NCBI GenBank assembly: GCA_029940695.1
Contig: JAPYUP010000001.1
Span: forward strand, 1-64,000
Length of the DNA: 64,000 nt
From: Candidatus Thalassarchaeaceae archaeon
GTDB taxonomy: Archaea > Thermoplasmatota > Poseidoniia > Poseidoniales > Thalassarchaeaceae
Reading direction: 5' to 3'
A model generated the notes under the pieces. It made no database searches. It had not been told where the DNA came from and saw only the letters and a program-made list of their open reading frames with translations. The position numbers were made by a program, and so were the translations under genes. The stretch's first letter is position 1. The number at the start of each line of letters is the position of its first letter. Positions 712 to 27,808 of this stretch are shown one piece after another.

Positions 712-884
712 GGTCAGGGGTCAGGAAAAGAGGAGATAGTCCTTGTTGACAGCACAGTCCCTAGCGTCTGTCCCACGCAACCCCTTCCAACCTACCGAAT
801 TGTATTATTCGATAGATTCTTTTCCAATAGTATTCTCGGGAAAATGTGGAACCATCCTATGGATGAATTCGAGGGGGGTGCCAG

Positions 885-1151
885 ATGCTAGACTCCGTAA
901 TCGAGCTAGCGCACAGAGAGTTGGTGGCCTACTTCGGGATGATTATGATACTCAGTGCCTTCTTACTTGAGACCAGAGACATCCTTCACAGCAAGGAGCG
1001 CCCCTACCTGATACTAATGGCCCTCGGCTCCGGGCTCCTTGCGGTCCGGGCGTACCTCATAGACGAGTGGGCCTTCTTCATACTGGAGGTAGCCTGGTTC
1101 GCTGCCGCTGCCCTCGGTCTGTGGTCGCTGGGAAACGCTCTAAGAAAATAA
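885..1151 (+). CDS. small membrane protein, 88 aa
   Basis: ORF with several hydrophobic segments; GGGGGGTGCCAG directly upstream of ATG. Confidence 0.6.
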   Translation: MLDSVIELAHRELVAYFGMIMILSAFLLETRDILHSKERPYLILMALGSGLLAVRAYLIDEWAFFILEVAWFAAAALGLWSLGNALRK

Positions 1152-1234
1152 GCTCAGGTAGGCATCGAATACCACTGGGGGTGCCAGTCTTGAACGAATG
1201 GTTCGACGACTGGAGGGGCTACGCCTTCATGATA

Positions 1235-1468
1235 CTACGAATTGGAAAAGGACCCTCTCCACAAGTCCGAGAATTTGGCGTCGGGGTTGGCCCGTGTTTG
1301 GGCGACGCAGCCGAATACAATGAAGAGGAGGCCCACGGAGAAGGGCACCAGCGCCGTCATCTGTCCGGCAGGCTCGTTAAGCAAAAGCCACCCCACCATT
1401 TCCAGGGCTATACCGATGAACGAGCAGAGTTTCAGGCCCCTGGACACCTTGCTCCCCTCATCGAGCAT
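1235..1468 (-). CDS. small two-TM membrane protein (MLDEGSKVSRGLKL...), about 77 aa
   Basis: Internal start in ORF 1235..1807; two hydrophobic segments; TTCAAG...CACCCCC motif upstream (1499-1517). Confidence 0.55.
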   Translation of the reverse strand: MLDEGSKVSRGLKLCSFIGIALEMVGWLLLNEPAGQMTALVPFSVGLLFIVFGCVAQTRANPDAKFSDLWRGSFSNS

Positions 1469-1548
1469 GAAGAGTCCAAAACGTGCGATGACCCTGACAG
1501 GGGGTGTCAACCTTGAAGCCCACCCTGACCGAGTGATCCGAAATGAGG

Positions 1549-1668
1549 TCAGAACGGCCACATGGCATCCAGCCATCCCGCCCAGTAGGCGCAGAGGAGG
1601 AGGACGATTCCCATTGCATGATACCACGTAGGGCCATCGGGCATGTCGGGTGGGACAATACCGTCCAT
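1549..1668 (-). CDS. tiny single-TM protein, 39 aa (MDGIVPPDMPDGPTWYHAMGIVLLLCAYWAGWLDAMWPF)
   Basis: Not in ORF track; translated by eye; C-terminus resembles the product of 24324..24467; TTCAAGGCTGGCACCCCC 28 nt upstream of ATG. Confidence 0.6.
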   Translation of the reverse strand: MDGIVPPDMPDGPTWYHAMGIVLLLCAYWAGWLDAMWPF

Positions 1669-1725
1669 GAAGTGGAAAGGGGGTGCCAGCCTTGAACCTA
1701 GATGCCATGCACCATGCTTGGATGG

Positions 1726-1800
1726 TGGGCCTGCCTGGATTTGAACCAGGGTCTATTGCTCCCAAAGCAACAAGCATAGACCAGACTAACCCACAGGCCC
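1726..1800 (-). tRNA. tRNA-Pro (anticodon TGG)
   Basis: Acceptor stem GGGCCTG/CAGGCCC, anticodon stem GTTGC/GCAAT with loop TTTGGGA, T arm CCTGG-TTCAAAT-CCAGG. Confidence 0.93.
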
Positions 1801-2635: not shown

Positions 2636-4591
2636 TTATGCTAGGCGAAGTGTCTCGAGGTTTGCAGGAGCATAAGTCTGGACTTTGAACTTCTCACGCA
2701 GTCCCATCCTGAATGCGTTGCAAGTCTGCGGGTCGCCATGGTGACAAATGATTTTGCGTGGTGTCGGGCTTAATGCAGAGACATAATCCATTAATTGATT
2801 CCTGTCGGAGTGCCCGCTGAAGCCATCGATAACTACCATGTTGCAACCGACATTAATCATGTATGTCTGACCTCCATCCATCAGAGGTACGTGAGAATGC
2901 CCCTCTTGCAGCCGCCTACCAAGGGTACCTGAGGCTTGATAGCCCACAAAACATAGTGTATTTCCGGGATCTGGGGCCCAGTGCTTCAGGTACTCTATGA
3001 TGGGGCCACCAGTCATCATACCACTGGTAGCAAGGACGATACAAGGGTTAGGGTCGAGCAATATAGACTCCCTGAGCTCTCTGGAGTCGACCTGCTTGAA
3101 CCAAGATGAGTTGAAGGGGTTCTCCTCGCCGCCCTTGAGCATTTTTTTCCTGAGATCGCGGTTCAAGAAGTCGGCATGACTAGAGTGAATCGCGGTGGCT
3201 TCAGTAATCATGCCATCTAGCCATACTGTCACGGGAGACACTCGTCCCGACTTGAAAAGCTCGTCTAAGGCGAGCATGACCTCTTGGGAACGACCAACTG
3301 CGAAGACGGGACAGAATATCTTGCCATTGCGATTCAGGGTGTCGATGACAAGGTCTTGGAGCTCTTGGCTCGCCTGTTGACGGGTGGGTTGAATGCTCTG
3401 TGGGCCGCCGTAAGTGGATTCTATCACGAGTGTGTCCACCTTGGGAAATCGAACGGTAGCTGCATCAAAGAGCCACGACTTCTCGTACTTGATATCTCCA
3501 GAGAACAATAGCCTATGCTCGGACTTGCCCTCACCGATTTGCATGTAGACGCTTGATGAGCCCAGTATGTGCCCCGCGTTCTCCAAAGTCATCTTGACAT
3601 CCGGGGCTATATCTGTCTTAATCCCCCAATTGAGGTCGACAACGTGCTTGATGCACTCTTGGATGTCTGCCTTCGAGTAGGGCGGCTCTCTGCCCTCAGC
3701 CCGTGAGACCTTAAGGTAGTCAATTTGCAGTAGTGTCATCAGGTCCCTAGTTGGTGGTGTGCAGTAAACGGGCCCCCTGTATCCATACCTGAACAACACA
3801 GGCAGCATTCCAATGTGATCCACGTGCGCGTGGGTGATTACCACGGCATCGAGATTGTCGAGAGGGAGGAGCTCGGGAGCAGCAAAAAACGGCTGCACCT
3901 CGTTCTGGTTGTTAGTGGGCTTGGCACCAACATCTACGAGAATCTTGGACTCGTTGGTGGTTACGAGGTGCATAGCCCTCCCAACTTCCCTGTAGGAGCC
4001 CAAAGCAGAGACCCGCACCCAAGGCTCGCCTGGGCGCTGAGGACGGTATATCCTAGTTCCGAACTTCCTGAACAACGACTTGCGCTCGTCGGCCATCTCC
4101 TTCCTGTAGCGACGAATGTCGTGTTGAGTTCGACTCTCACGCGCTGGAGCTCTGATAACCTTCACCAACCAACCGACCTCCTCACGAAGCGAAATAACGT
4201 TGCTTCCCTTCGGACCTACTGCGGAAGCTGGATCATCGCACTCTATGATGACCTCTGAGAGGGCTGGGTCTAGCCAAATATTCCTAATCTCTGCTTCAGG
4301 TGGCATAATTTGGTTGACTGCATCGTGCACCTCAACTTCTGAAGAAAGCATGTCAGGATGGGGGCGAACCACTATTCGTCTCTTAATCGACTTGGCTATT
4401 CGCACTGTGAGGCTGTCGCTGCGCCCTGCAAAGGCGTTTGGCTGATCGGTGATAATAGCAATCGAACCGGCTTCCAAGTCGACTTCGTAGTCGACACTCT
4501 TCGGTACCAGTCCTGCGACCTTCTTCTTGATCTCTGGCAGTGTCAAACGCAATCTAGCACTTCCTATTTTCATCCGCGGTAGGCATTCCAT
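2636..4591 (-). CDS. fttA: KH-domain beta-CASP ribonuclease, transcription termination factor FttA/aCPSF1
   Basis: N-terminal KH region, HAHVDHIG metallo-beta-lactamase motif, beta-CASP features (SGMMTGG, GFSGHSDR). Confidence 0.95.
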   Translation of the reverse strand: MECLPRMKIGSARLRLTLPEIKKKVAGLVPKSVDYEVDLEAGSIAIITDQPNAFAGRSDSLTVRIAKSIKRRIVVRPHPDMLSSEVEVHDAVNQIMPPEAEIRNIWLDPALSEVIIECDDPASAVGPKGSNVISLREEVGWLVKVIRAPARESRTQHDIRRYRKEMADERKSLFRKFGTRIYRPQRPGEPWVRVSALGSYREVGRAMHLVTTNESKILVDVGAKPTNNQNEVQPFFAAPELLPLDNLDAVVITHAHVDHIGMLPVLFRYGYRGPVYCTPPTRDLMTLLQIDYLKVSRAEGREPPYSKADIQECIKHVVDLNWGIKTDIAPDVKMTLENAGHILGSSSVYMQIGEGKSEHRLLFSGDIKYEKSWLFDAATVRFPKVDTLVIESTYGGPQSIQPTRQQASQELQDLVIDTLNRNGKIFCPVFAVGRSQEVMLALDELFKSGRVSPVTVWLDGMITEATAIHSSHADFLNRDLRKKMLKGGEENPFNSSWFKQVDSRELRESILLDPNPCIVLATSGMMTGGPIIEYLKHWAPDPGNTLCFVGYQASGTLGRRLQEGHSHVPLMDGGQTYMINVGCNMVVIDGFSGHSDRNQLMDYVSALSPTPRKIICHHGDPQTCNAFRMGLREKFKVQTYAPANLETLRLA

Positions 4592-18009: not shown

Positions 18010-18270
18010 TCATTCGGTTTCCTGTATCGAAGTTCCATAGACTGTGAGAACGACCGACCAACGTTTTCCGTCGAACGCTGGCGTCAATCCTGGTTTATTG
18101 GTTTCAAAGGACGCAGAAGAGATTTCTCTCGTCTCTTTGAAGTGTCGAAGGTATTCCTGAATGTTCTCCCAAAGTTCCGGGAGCGATTCCGCATATACCC
18201 TCACATGCTGACCCGGAGCCTCCCATCCATCAGCTAGGCCCATATCTACAACCTCCCACTTTTCGCCCAT
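18010..18270 (-). CDS. small hypothetical protein, 86 aa
   Basis: ORF preceded by TTCAAGCCACGCACCCCC exactly 28 nt upstream of ATG. Confidence 0.55.
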   Translation of the reverse strand: MGEKWEVVDMGLADGWEAPGQHVRVYAESLPELWENIQEYLRHFKETREISSASFETNKPGLTPAFDGKRWSVVLTVYGTSIQETE

Positions 18271-18422
18271 GGTTTCCGAAGGGGGTGCGTGGCTTGAACA
18301 GTGTGTTTCTAGGACTCCCTATGAAATGTCAATAAGGTGGTAAATGAGTTGCCCTCGAGTCAATGATTACTGTGGATCGTATGCTGTTAACAAAGTAATC
18401 CTACTTGCTATGCTAAATAGGG

Positions 18423-23858: not shown

Positions 23859-23934
23859 TCTAGGGTACCCTCTGAATCGTACCTCTGGTCGTCGTCGAAC
23901 AATTCGTTCAAGGCTGGCACCCCAACCCGTAATC

Positions 23935-24264
23935 ATGGAGCGTGGAGTTGTAGGTGGCCTTTGCGGGGTCAAAGGATGCAGAAGCCCCACCATGTACCAG
24001 AGTCCCGTCTGCTACAAGCACAAGGGGAAGTCTGGGGACTTCGCGTTCAGGTCTACAAAGGGCGATGCAGAGAAGGAAGAGGAGACGGGATGGTGGGAGG
24101 AGGGAGACAGCCCCGAAGAAGAGGCTCGACAGGTCGCCGACCTCGCCAAGGGCTATTCCAGCACGGAGGACGATGAGGATTGGGATTGGAGTGGGTGGTG
24201 GTGGAGAATTCCCTTGTTCCTTATCATCGTCTTCAGCTGGGAATACGTGAAATACGGACTCTGA
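23935..24264 (+). CDS. small C-terminally anchored protein with CxxxxC...CxxH N-terminus and GWWEEGDSPE motif
   Basis: Start chosen at MERGVVGGLCGVKGC; TTCAAGGCTGGCACCCC 28 nt upstream. Confidence 0.65.
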   Translation: MERGVVGGLCGVKGCRSPTMYQSPVCYKHKGKSGDFAFRSTKGDAEKEEETGWWEEGDSPEEEARQVADLAKGYSSTEDDEDWDWSGWWWRIPLFLIIVFSWEYVKYGL

Positions 24265-24323
24265 TTGAATCATGGTGGAGTCCCAGCGAGGCATTCAAGA
24301 ATGGTACCCCCTGTCGTAATGTG

Positions 24324-24467
24324 ATGATTGAGCCACCCCCCATGACGGGTGATGGTTGGGAGCCCGGTGCCGTAGAGGCAATGGTAATCGTTGGCATCCT
24401 TATCGCTTACTGGTTGGGTTGGCTGAATGTGATTTGGATGAATGCGTTGTCGTTGTGGCCGTTCTGA
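24324..24467 (+). CDS. tiny single-TM protein, 47 aa (...IVGILIAYWLGWLNVIWMNALSLWPF)
   Basis: Internal start in ORF 24180..24467; C-terminus resembles 1549..1668 product; TTCAAG 30 nt upstream (27 nt if GTG 24321 is used). Confidence 0.6.
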   Translation: MIEPPPMTGDGWEPGAVEAMVIVGILIAYWLGWLNVIWMNALSLWPF

Positions 24468-24532
24468 CTTCGACCACGAATGAACTCATGACCCAAGCAT
24501 CCAGTTCAAGGCTGGCACCCCCTTTCGGAGGC

Positions 24533-24787
24533 ATGGAATACAGCGTTATTCAAGTCGGCTCGATAAATGAACTCAAGGATGCGGTGAGGAAGATGATTGG
24601 TTCGGGTTGGGTGCCTCTAGGGGGAATGAATGTTTACTCCAGCGGTGACCATGGCTCCCCCGATTACTATCAGGCGATGGTAAGGAAATTGGACAATGTA
24701 GCATCTTCGAACGCCCAGATGACCGATCTCAAGACTGAGATCAACTACCTCAACGATGAGTTGACTGAGTGGTTGGAAGATCATTAG
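24533..24787 (+). CDS. small DUF1737-like protein
   Basis: YSVIQVGSINELKDAVRKMIGSGWVPLGGMNV; TTCAAGGCTGGCACCCCC 28 nt upstream. Confidence 0.7.
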   Translation: MEYSVIQVGSINELKDAVRKMIGSGWVPLGGMNVYSSGDHGSPDYYQAMVRKLDNVASSNAQMTDLKTEINYLNDELTEWLEDH

Positions 24788-25124
24788 GACCTCCGCGAGG
24801 TGCCCAAGGCTATCACTCCCTTATGTGATCCCTTCCAATTCATTAATCAACGAAATCCATGCTGACGTATTACCTAGGAGTTTGTTCCTCCAAGAACAAG
24901 GGGGTTGGGGGTTCCTAGGTCGGCATCTAAACTGCCGCGGTCCCATCGGCCGAAATCTCCCCCTTCCCCCACCTTCATCTTTGGACCTGCATAGCTTAGG
25001 TCCCCATATTTCCTCTCAGTGCAACAGAAGGCGTAGCCCCCAGCGAAATCATGCCGAAGTCGGCCGAGAGAGGGGTGGTGGGGCCCACCAACCGTTCAAG
25101 AATCACATCCCTTTGGCGAATCAT

Positions 25125-25247
25125 ATGGACATCAGACCAATCCTCAATGTGGGAAGACTCATCATCATCTTCCTGTTCATCCTGTTTGTCGTTTTCAGCA
25201 GGACTTCCATGCTCCGAGACAACCCCCTTAGCGGCATTTTGGGATGA
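25125..25247 (+). CDS. tiny single-TM protein, 40 aa
   Basis: MDIRPILNVGRLIIIFLFILFVVFSRTSMLRDNPLSGILG; TTCAAGAATCACATCCC 30 nt upstream. Confidence 0.5.
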   Translation: MDIRPILNVGRLIIIFLFILFVVFSRTSMLRDNPLSGILG

Positions 25248-25277: not shown

Positions 25278-26045
25278 TCAGTTAATCCGTTGAATTGCCT
25301 CTATGTCGAAAATGGAGACTGCTCGATCCAGGGCAACTTCTTTGCTGAACCACCTCGCTTCCTCAATTTCATCTTCCTTAGGAATAATTTCCTCAGCACC
25401 GATGTCGGATTGACATTGATAGGTGAATGAGACCCAATTAATACCCTCGTTGTCGAAAATGGCAGTTTGTACGATGTTACCATCATCACCTGGGGTTGCC
25501 TCTCTAGTCTCGCCCTTGGGATCTGGAACTGAAATCACGATGCCTAGCTCCTCCAGCACCTCCCTCTCGGCTGCTTCACGGGGGTGCTCGTCATAGTCGA
25601 CGAAGCCCCCCGGGAGAGTCCAGCAACCTGTGAAGAAACCCCTGGAAACCTTCGTCATCAGGATTTCTCCTAGGGGGTTTGTGATGATCACCTTGCTTAC
25701 GACCCTGTGGAGGGTTCGGTAGACTGACTCCCTGGCAACTGGGTCGACTGCACTGTCGCTGATTACAGAATCCTTCCATGCCCAGTGCTCGGGCCAGCCA
25801 ATCTTTGGCGTTGCATGAACGACTCTGTGACTGAGTTTGCCCAGCCTGAACTCATTCACCCTCTTCTGGTTCCATTTGATTCCCATCGCTGTAGCTTCTT
25901 GCGGTGTTGGCAACCTGATGAGAAATTTTTCGCCTTTCCATGAAGTGCGTCCCTTCACAGGTATTACGGGTCCATCACCACTGGTGTCAACCAACAGTAG
26001 TTTACCGTCGTGTTCTAGGTGAATGTGCTCACTGACTCCGCCCAT
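25278..26045 (-). CDS. NUDIX hydrolase
   Basis: Nudix box GGFVDYDEHPREAAEREVLEELGI. Confidence 0.93.
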   Translation of the reverse strand: MGGVSEHIHLEHDGKLLLVDTSGDGPVIPVKGRTSWKGEKFLIRLPTPQEATAMGIKWNQKRVNEFRLGKLSHRVVHATPKIGWPEHWAWKDSVISDSAVDPVARESVYRTLHRVVSKVIITNPLGEILMTKVSRGFFTGCWTLPGGFVDYDEHPREAAEREVLEELGIVISVPDPKGETREATPGDDGNIVQTAIFDNEGINWVSFTYQCQSDIGAEEIIPKEDEIEEARWFSKEVALDRAVSIFDIEAIQRIN

Positions 26046-26084: not shown

Positions 26085-27023
26085 TCAGTATCCAAGTATG
26101 GAGCTCAACTGCTCCTTGTAGAAAGATCCGGATTGCTGGAGGCTGGCAATCTCTGAATCCTCCAGATCCAGTTCGATGATTTCCTCGACTCCGTTTTTCC
26201 CAAGAATGATTGGAACTCCGATGTAGATGTCATCCATCCCGTACTCACCCGAGAGGAAAGCGCTGCAAGGCAGCACCCTTCGCCTGTCGTTCAAGATTGA
26301 TTCGACCATGATAGCGGCAGCGCTGCCCGGTGCATAGAAGGCGCTTCCCCTCTCAAGTAGCTTGACAATCTCCCCCCCACCACCAGCGGTCCTATCGCAG
26401 ATGGCCTTGATAGCCCCAGCATCCAAGAGTTGTGTGATTGGTATGCCGTTGACAGTGGTGTAGCGAGGTAGGGGGACCATTGTGTCCCCATGCCCACCAA
26501 GAACCATGGCTTGAACATCCTCGTTACTGCAACCGACTGCATCGGAGATGAAGTGAGTCATCCTCGCGCAGTCGAGAATTCCAGCTTGACCGATGACGCG
26601 TTGGTGGGGGAAGCCGGTAATTCGTTGCATGTGGTATGTCATTAGGTCGAGAGGATTGGTTACCATCACGATGACAGCGTCGGGAGAATGGTCACGAATT
26701 CCCTCCCCTACCTGCGAGATGATATCTGCATTCTTCTCTATCAGGTCCTCGCGAGTCATACCTGGCTGCCGTGGGAATCCCGAGGTTACGACGACGACAT
26801 CTGAGCCTTCGATATCGGCATAGTTGTTTGTCCCAGTGACGTGGCCGTCATAGTTCAGAATCCTGCCACCTTGGCTCATATCTAGTGCCTTGCCCTTTGC
26901 GACCCCTTCGAATATGTCCAGAAGGACTATTTCACCAACGTTCTTCTCTGCGAGGACGAATGCGCAAGTGGCTCCGACGTTTCCTGCACCGATAATAGCG
27001 ACCTTCCGCCCCCTCGCCGTCAT
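26085..27023 (-). CDS. mdh: malate dehydrogenase
   Basis: VAIIGAGNVGATCA, VTNPLDLMTY, VLGGHGDTMVPL; start moved to MTARGRKV. Confidence 0.93.
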   Translation of the reverse strand: MTARGRKVAIIGAGNVGATCAFVLAEKNVGEIVLLDIFEGVAKGKALDMSQGGRILNYDGHVTGTNNYADIEGSDVVVVTSGFPRQPGMTREDLIEKNADIISQVGEGIRDHSPDAVIVMVTNPLDLMTYHMQRITGFPHQRVIGQAGILDCARMTHFISDAVGCSNEDVQAMVLGGHGDTMVPLPRYTTVNGIPITQLLDAGAIKAICDRTAGGGGEIVKLLERGSAFYAPGSAAAIMVESILNDRRRVLPCSAFLSGEYGMDDIYIGVPIILGKNGVEEIIELDLEDSEIASLQQSGSFYKEQLSSILGY

Positions 27024-27115
27024 TGTTCGATTCCCCGATGACTTGGGTCTTAGAATTTGGGAAGCGTTGAATTCATCTGTGCCGCCACAAAGGTATTGTC
27101 CCAACGGACCGTACA

Positions 27116-27808
27116 ATGGATGTGGAAGAACGAAAGCGTGCTCTCCTAGCCATCGCTCTGGTTGGCTTCGCACCATCTCTCTCGATTGTATACAGTTTGT
27201 CAGTCAGCAGTGATGAATTTCTGACCCAGGCGTTTTTCATTGCTTGCAAGGCATGGATCCTGATAATTCCCACTGTGTGGTACTTGCGAGTCGAGGGGAA
27301 TGAACCGTCTCGTTCTTCGACTGATTGTGAGGGATTGCGTATGGGCGCTATTACCGGACTTGGAATGTCGGCGATAATTTTGGTCACCTGGTTCACACTA
27401 GGGGATTCAATTGACACTTCGGCGATGATTTCCGAACTAGAGCCGACAGGGCTGATGGATATACAGATGTATATAGCCGGAGTTCTGTACTGGATCTTTC
27501 TCAACAGCTTGCTCGAGGAGTACGTGTTCAGGTGGTTCATCACCACCAAGGGATACGAATTGCTCGGTAGCGAGGTGCAGGCAATTATCCTCTCGGCTGT
27601 GATGTTCACCCTGCACCACTCTTTGGCATTGCACTTGTTCGGATTCGAATGGTGGCAGACTGCATTGGCTAGTTTCGGTTTGCTCGCAGCAGCAGCAGTC
27701 TGGTCGTGGCTCTACATGCGTTATCGCTCGATTTGGGTTTGCTGGTTGTCACATGCTATGTGCGATGTAGTAGTGTTCGGTGTCGGCTACGTGCTCTTAT
27801 TTTCATGA
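27116..27808 (+). CDS. CPBP-family intramembrane protease
   Basis: LLEEYVFRW and downstream His motifs (LHHSLALH, LSHAMCDV) within TM segments. Confidence 0.88.
   Translation: MDVEERKRALLAIALVGFAPSLSIVYSLSVSSDEFLTQAFFIACKAWILIIPTVWYLRVEGNEPSRSSTDCEGLRMGAITGLGMSAIILVTWFTLGDSIDTSAMISELEPTGLMDIQMYIAGVLYWIFLNSLLEEYVFRWFITTKGYELLGSEVQAIILSAVMFTLHHSLALHLFGFEWWQTALASFGLLAAAAVWSWLYMRYRSIWVCWLSHAMCDVVVFGVGYVLLFS

Follow-up and report, generated by a model that had tools for sequence, protein, structure and literature searches.

The 39-aa open reading frame at positions 1549–1668 of the window, the whole 64,000-nucleotide stretch of the Thalassarchaeaceae contig that was analysed, is, judging by its sequence, a protein gene and a member of a micro-protein family. 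The larger and more interesting result than this family itself is the upstream element that it shares with about 20 micro-ORFs, mostly unrelated to one another, in the Thalassarchaeaceae (Marine Group II archaea), all with the element 10 nt upstream of the start codon, together with the array that such units form at a tRNA-Pro gene. Taken as a whole, the data are probably explained by a genuine micro-gene within a lineage-specific array, each unit of which carries its own promoter-like element. The features concerned are located in the window as follows.

873–884, minus strand: half element CTGGCACCCCCC, directly abutting the gene start at 885, which has the opposite orientation
885–1151, plus strand: membrane protein of 88 aa, whose homologue in relatives comes straight after a MDVRPILN micro-gene
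1177–1194, minus strand: gene-less element copy, followed by ATG CCT ACC TGA; probable inversion breakpoint
1235–1468, minus strand: 77-aa membrane ORF of unit 2, counted from its first ATG; 84-aa frame if the ATC at canonical spacing is used
1500–1517, minus strand: element copy of unit 2, TTCAAGGTTGACACCCCC, with ATC at +10 (1487–1489) instead of ATG
1549–1668, minus strand: gene of the 39-aa micro-protein, unit 1 of the array, MDGIVPP...AYWAGWLDAMWPF; ATG start, stop codon at 1549–1551
1679–1696, minus strand: promoter-like element, perfect consensus TTCAAGGCTGGCACCCCC, 10 nt ahead of the ATG of the 39-aa ORF
1723–1800, minus strand: tRNA-Pro(TGG), the gene at which the array is anchored within the genus
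2636–4591, minus strand: FttA/KH-CPSF, left-hand anchor, with a zinc-ribbon gene at 1827–2276
18010–18298, minus strand: isolated unit, consisting of a degenerate element (18281–18298) and an 86-aa soluble ORF (18010–18270)
23907–23924, plus strand: element of the 109-aa unit, with an extended upstream block in common with the copy at 1177, in opposite orientation
23935–24264, plus strand: 109-aa ORF MERGVVGGLCG...FSWEYVKYGL
24294–24311, plus strand: element of the 47-aa unit
24324–24467, plus strand: 47-aa paralogue, MIEPPPMTGDGWEPG...LSLWPF
24505–24522, plus strand: element, perfect consensus, 10 nt ahead of the ATG of the 84-aa ORF
24533–24787, plus strand: 84-aa ORF MEYSVIQVG..., with weak, sub-threshold DUF1737 similarity; similar element-headed ORFs in G018 and G021
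25095–25112, plus strand: degenerate element TTCAAGAATCACATCCCT
25125–25247, plus strand: 40-aa membrane micro-protein MDIRPILNVGR..., with element-headed homologues in G018, G006, G022 and G040
25278–26045, minus strand: NUDIX protein, named by reading the sequence, which anchors the ancestral array on its right-hand side
26085–27176, minus strand: probable malate dehydrogenase, named by reading the sequence; it follows the NUDIX gene in relatives too

A preliminary description of this DNA had read the 39-aa frame as a real membrane micro-protein paralogous to the 47-aa product, which may alternatively start at the GTG at 24321 and gain one residue. The paralogy is borne out by a profile HMM built from the relatives' homologues only, which picks out both window peptides as its top two matches in the six-frame translation of the window (E-values of 5e-14 and 6e-14; 0.31 for the third best), and the WPF-stop end and the upstream block described for the pair are indeed present at both loci. 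The family is defined here as MDIIPP...AYWxGWLxxLWPF, and its homology in relatives is beyond chance; the homologue search that had been proposed recovered it in the genus (G012, G004, G011 and G023) and, via the profile, in two sister genera (G068 and G087), where the homologue in G087 stands without the upstream element. In G000, G004, G011 and G012 the gene lies 3′ of tRNA-Pro(TGG), and the named records with homologues belong to Candidatus Thalassarchaeum and Thalassarchaeaceae, Marine Group IIb. Further matches obtained with the 39-mer query alone lie mostly inside long frames and were rejected as largely due to chance. In two relatives (L048 in G011 and L047 in G004) the GTG of a 135–149 aa ORF overlaps the WPF-stop of the micro-gene, directly after the 46-aa ORF, which suggests translational coupling there.

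The substitutions among the homologues are of the coding type, and with the homologues themselves they uphold the reading of the frame as a genuine gene. Between G004 and G011, where the proposed codon-substitution test gave p = 1e-5, changes affect 12 of 31 synonymous but only 5 of 101 nonsynonymous sites (dN/dS 0.10). Across the best-sampled trio of G004, G011 and G023 the ratio is 0.10–0.19, with p from 9e-4 to 3e-6, and the changes concentrate at third codon positions (for example 3, 1 and 16 at the three positions); the lowest value, 3e-6, is reached for G011/G023, and the G004/G068 comparison likewise gives 3e-6. Purifying selection is not significant in the window's own branch (G000 versus G012, dN/dS 0.48, p = 0.13), nor is it between the two window paralogues (p = 0.16).

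The element takes the form cGAACCAACCG-TTCAAGGCTGGCACCCCCT-N9-ATG, with the full consensus cGAACCAACCG TTCAAG gcTGGCACCCCCT nnCnGAnTC ATG. With up to three mismatches allowed, the block TTCAAGGCTGGCACCCCC is present in seven copies in the window, where shuffles predict 0.07, and nearly all of the best copies that the 1.42-Mb genome contains lie within the window. In 28 distinct instances from the genus and the family the start codon stands exactly 10 nt past the 18-nt core, a set from which copies with other spacing had been put aside, so that the fair test of spacing is a control based on TTCAAG sites. For this control 137 distinct sites were taken from the window and from the loci of twelve relatives, chosen for holding the core and not for their spacing, and a start codon is found at +28 in 22 of the 27 sites with the CACCCCC box compared with 7 of the 110 without it (p = 6e-15). 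Unit 2 may have lost its start, or the ATC at its start position (1487–1489) may act as a rare start codon.

Searched with a covariance model that uses sequence alone, 17 of 28 genus genomes have the element at E ≤ 0.01, and it is also present in a few genomes of the family's other genera, with ORF-linked copies in the sister genera g11, g12 and g17; in sister genera the box has the variant CACCTCC, still ahead of micro-ORFs. Poseidoniaceae, the order's other family, have weak partial matches only, none with a correctly spaced ORF, and an earlier description of such an element in the Thalassarchaeaceae/Marine Group II lineage, or of the array at tRNA-Pro, was not found in the literature searched. 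A possible second element subclass around TACGTTCAAGCC.TGCACCYCCAT is seen upstream of other small ORFs (L059, L055 and L115).

The upstream block is thus present at both loci as first described, but it is not private to the pair, since it heads some 20 families. These include MDIIPP..WPF, MGKLEFLGIPNW, MTDLEQWGRWEV, MDIRPILN, MLLPGIHWQW, MKYKIV/MEYSV, MDYIVLRARGPN (DUF1737), MSEKGWWEEQ and MERGV, among others. The element ORFs have a median length of 47 aa, versus 314 aa for the ordinary ORFs of the window. Several of the families are under purifying selection of their own, which argues that the element marks real genes: the MDIRP family has changes at 24 of 29 synonymous and 7 of 91 nonsynonymous sites, and p is 3e-5 for the LLPGIH family and 2e-3 for the MDYIV family. 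Above the cut-offs of Pfam and NCBIfam the only match is that of one unit to DUF1737 (PF08410, cut-off 24 bits), where MDYIV scores 24.8 bits and MEYSV a sub-threshold 11.9 bits; NCBIfam holds no family for the micro-proteins. A weak purH match (14.9 bits, G000:C3) was taken as chance. The only enzyme-like candidate member is a 129-aa ORF with a weaker element copy (L114, G020:C18), OsmC-like by eye.

The position of the element suggests how it may work. In 138 ordinary genes the upstream profile is weak, with T at −28/−27 and A at −26/−25 and at −36/−32/−31, a pattern that fits BRE/TATA promoters giving leaderless mRNAs; simple EM motif discovery found no positioned motif in ordinary promoters, and the positional profile alone was used. 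The element occupies the place of this weak TATA/BRE signal of the lineage and can therefore be read as a leaderless promoter dedicated to these units and equipped with a regulatory box in addition; this box, at −20 to −10, is strongly conserved in the element and missing from the ordinary genes. With exactly 28 nt from the first T to the start codon, the mRNA is probably leaderless. The BRE-like stretch cGAACCAACCG would then lie at −39 to −29, TTCAAG at −28 to −23 would take the archaeal TATA-box position, and the extra box TGGCACCCCCT at −20 to −10 would probably be recognised by a dedicated regulator or by a variant initiation factor. From this arrangement we infer a dedicated promoter, leaderless mRNAs and co-regulated units, whose micro-proteins, mostly single-span membrane peptides, would be produced together under one condition.

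A membrane location is likely for the 39-mer, which has an acidic and Pro-rich N-terminus, no K or R, a hydrophobic stretch and a Trp-rich WPF end. Transmembrane segments were called at a hydropathy cut-off of 1.6 over one hydrophobic segment of about 19 residues; the maximum is 1.58 for the 39-mer, just under the cut-off, and 2.11 for the 47-mer paralogue. The peptide might insert as one helix and then bind or tune a larger membrane complex, and such a single-span protein with a larger partner is a tentative proposal, somewhat short of an even chance. A transmembrane stretch is present in 19 of the 27 non-redundant element ORFs and absent from the other 8, so that a "membrane regulon" is a statement about the majority.

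The genomic setting supplies the anchor for the array. Relatives have the conserved order FttA, zinc-ribbon protein, tRNA-Pro(TGG), the units, NUDIX and malate dehydrogenase. A survey that started from tRNA-Pro, which avoids choosing loci by the element, found at least one unit between tRNA-Pro and NUDIX in 10 of the 21 genus genomes that have enough downstream sequence; the other genomes of the 21 have no convincing element copy in the tRNA-Pro interval. The left end of the window carries FttA, the zinc-ribbon gene, tRNA-Pro and units 1–2; NUDIX, malate dehydrogenase and the units of 109, 47, 84 and 40 aa lie in the opposite orientation at 23.9–27.2 kb. Inverting about 1.2–23.9 kb brings back the gene order of the relatives, and the two window loci therefore look like a single array that was divided by an inversion of some 22.7 kb (window 1177–23924) relative to all relatives examined. 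Two loci about 23 kb apart had been described, and the positions are right, but they apparently represent one array that the inversion has separated. The ends of the inversion would be the gene-less copy at 1177 (minus strand) and the copy at 23907 (plus strand), which have the extended block CGTCGAACMATTCGTTCAAGRCTGGCACCCC in common; as all the genomes are apparently MAGs, the inversion could be an assembly join, although the two ends have no repeat in common that is longer than about 30–40 nt. In G023 (L050, contig C22, about 102947–102989) the 3′ half of a tRNA-Pro lies beside the array near the contig end, as either a tRNA fragment or an assembly chimera.

Several other explanations were weighed against the promoter-headed micro-gene. 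That two unrelated, spurious ORFs both happen to end in WPF gains something from the weak pairwise match of the single peptides (E = 0.046), but the relatives' profile, the coding-type substitutions, the common element and the synteny all counter it, and a chance origin is counted as refuted, being next to impossible. It could also be that the element is read in RNA, as a 5′ UTR hairpin or a ribosome-binding signal that sets the translation of the micro-ORF, as the short and fixed distance to the start codon and the imperfect dyad CCAaCC-N6-GGcTGG in the consensus would allow. The dyad is, however, not beyond chance and shows no covariation, with 68.8% of cells paired versus 69.6% in shuffles and a double change in one pair, which together make an RNA structure unlikely; a Shine-Dalgarno-like GGAGG is absent as well, and the element falls on the TATA/BRE position, so a role in RNA is very unlikely.

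The mobility of the units suggests that the element might be a cassette boundary rather than, or besides, a promoter, with element and ORF moving as a unit and array ends recombining at the element. Unit order and content do vary among genomes (MEYSV then MDIRP in G000, MDIRS then MKYKIV in G018), the inversion ends sit at two inverted element copies, of which one is gene-less, and the gene at 885 has a half element right against its start. Recombination would not, however, need a base-exact spacing to the start codon, in most arrays the last ORF is not followed by another element, some units stand alone (18281; G000:C37), and unsystematic reading of the immediate flanks brought no integrase to notice, which leaves a boundary role on the unlikely side; a micro-gene platform in which the element is both a specialised promoter and an exchange point for mostly membrane-spanning small genes beside tRNA-Pro, through gain, loss, reordering and inversion, is itself unlikely. 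Tandem single-span peptides of 30–50 aa, strain-variable in content and located in a tRNA hotspot, would also suit addictive or toxic membrane peptides, such as type I toxin-like or anti-virus effectors, and the MLLPGIH family has a weak holin-like Pfam match (15.4 bits, where the cut-off is 22.6). The purifying selection seen between species and between genera speaks against toxins, as does the presence of the element ahead of soluble DUF1737-like and OsmC-like proteins, and the membrane micro-proteins tested have no match above cut-off in Pfam or PHROGs; a toxin array is thus quite unlikely. The PHROGs result, together with 2.9 million viral contigs that hold neither a relative of the micro-protein nor an exact copy of the extended element, also led to the rejection of a viral origin. 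The dedicated promoter of a micro-gene array thus remains the preferred reading, and in it the interval from tRNA-Pro(TGG) to the NUDIX gene is where units come, go and change their order.

Marine Group II archaea are described as the most abundant planktonic archaea of the surface ocean and as having no cultured representatives (PMC6461757), and for lack of cultures little is known of their regulation. The array is a first candidate micro-protein regulon for a lineage without laboratory cultures, and the base-precise element ahead of its micro-ORF families offers a promoter class that can be tested. It may also serve as a practical finder of real micro-genes whose shortness defeats ordinary homology searches, and gene turnover at the tRNA-Pro hotspot should be traceable in metagenomes.

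The candidate regulon resembles several known systems and differs from each. Small membrane proteins linked to stress, for example YohP, are described for E. coli (PMC7549839), and translated small ORFs for Methanosarcina mazei (PMC11456600). The single-span small membrane proteins of bacteria and archaea are alike in having 30–50 aa and one hydrophobic segment and in being easily missed by annotation, whereas the present set has many members, for the most part unrelated, that are headed by a single precise element and lined up at a single tRNA gene. In Haloferax volcanii leaderless promoters with BRE and TATA have been mapped, and 72% of the protein-coding transcripts are leaderless (PMC4983044); archaeal leaderless promoters likewise have a box at −28, a BRE-like stretch before it and a C just ahead of the ATG, but here TTCAAG replaces the A/T box and the extra box at −20 to −10 is added. 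As in the tRNA-gene hotspots of genomic islands, the stretch immediately 3′ of a tRNA gene varies in gene content while the flanks are conserved, though in this case the content consists of micro-genes with one common element, and unsystematic inspection of the genus tRNA-Pro sites showed no integrase, att duplication or large island. Finally, the modular small-gene units and their variable order are reminiscent of integron gene cassettes, in contrast to which the element stands on the 5′ side of every ORF, with constant spacing to the start codon, and is not a 3′ attC site.
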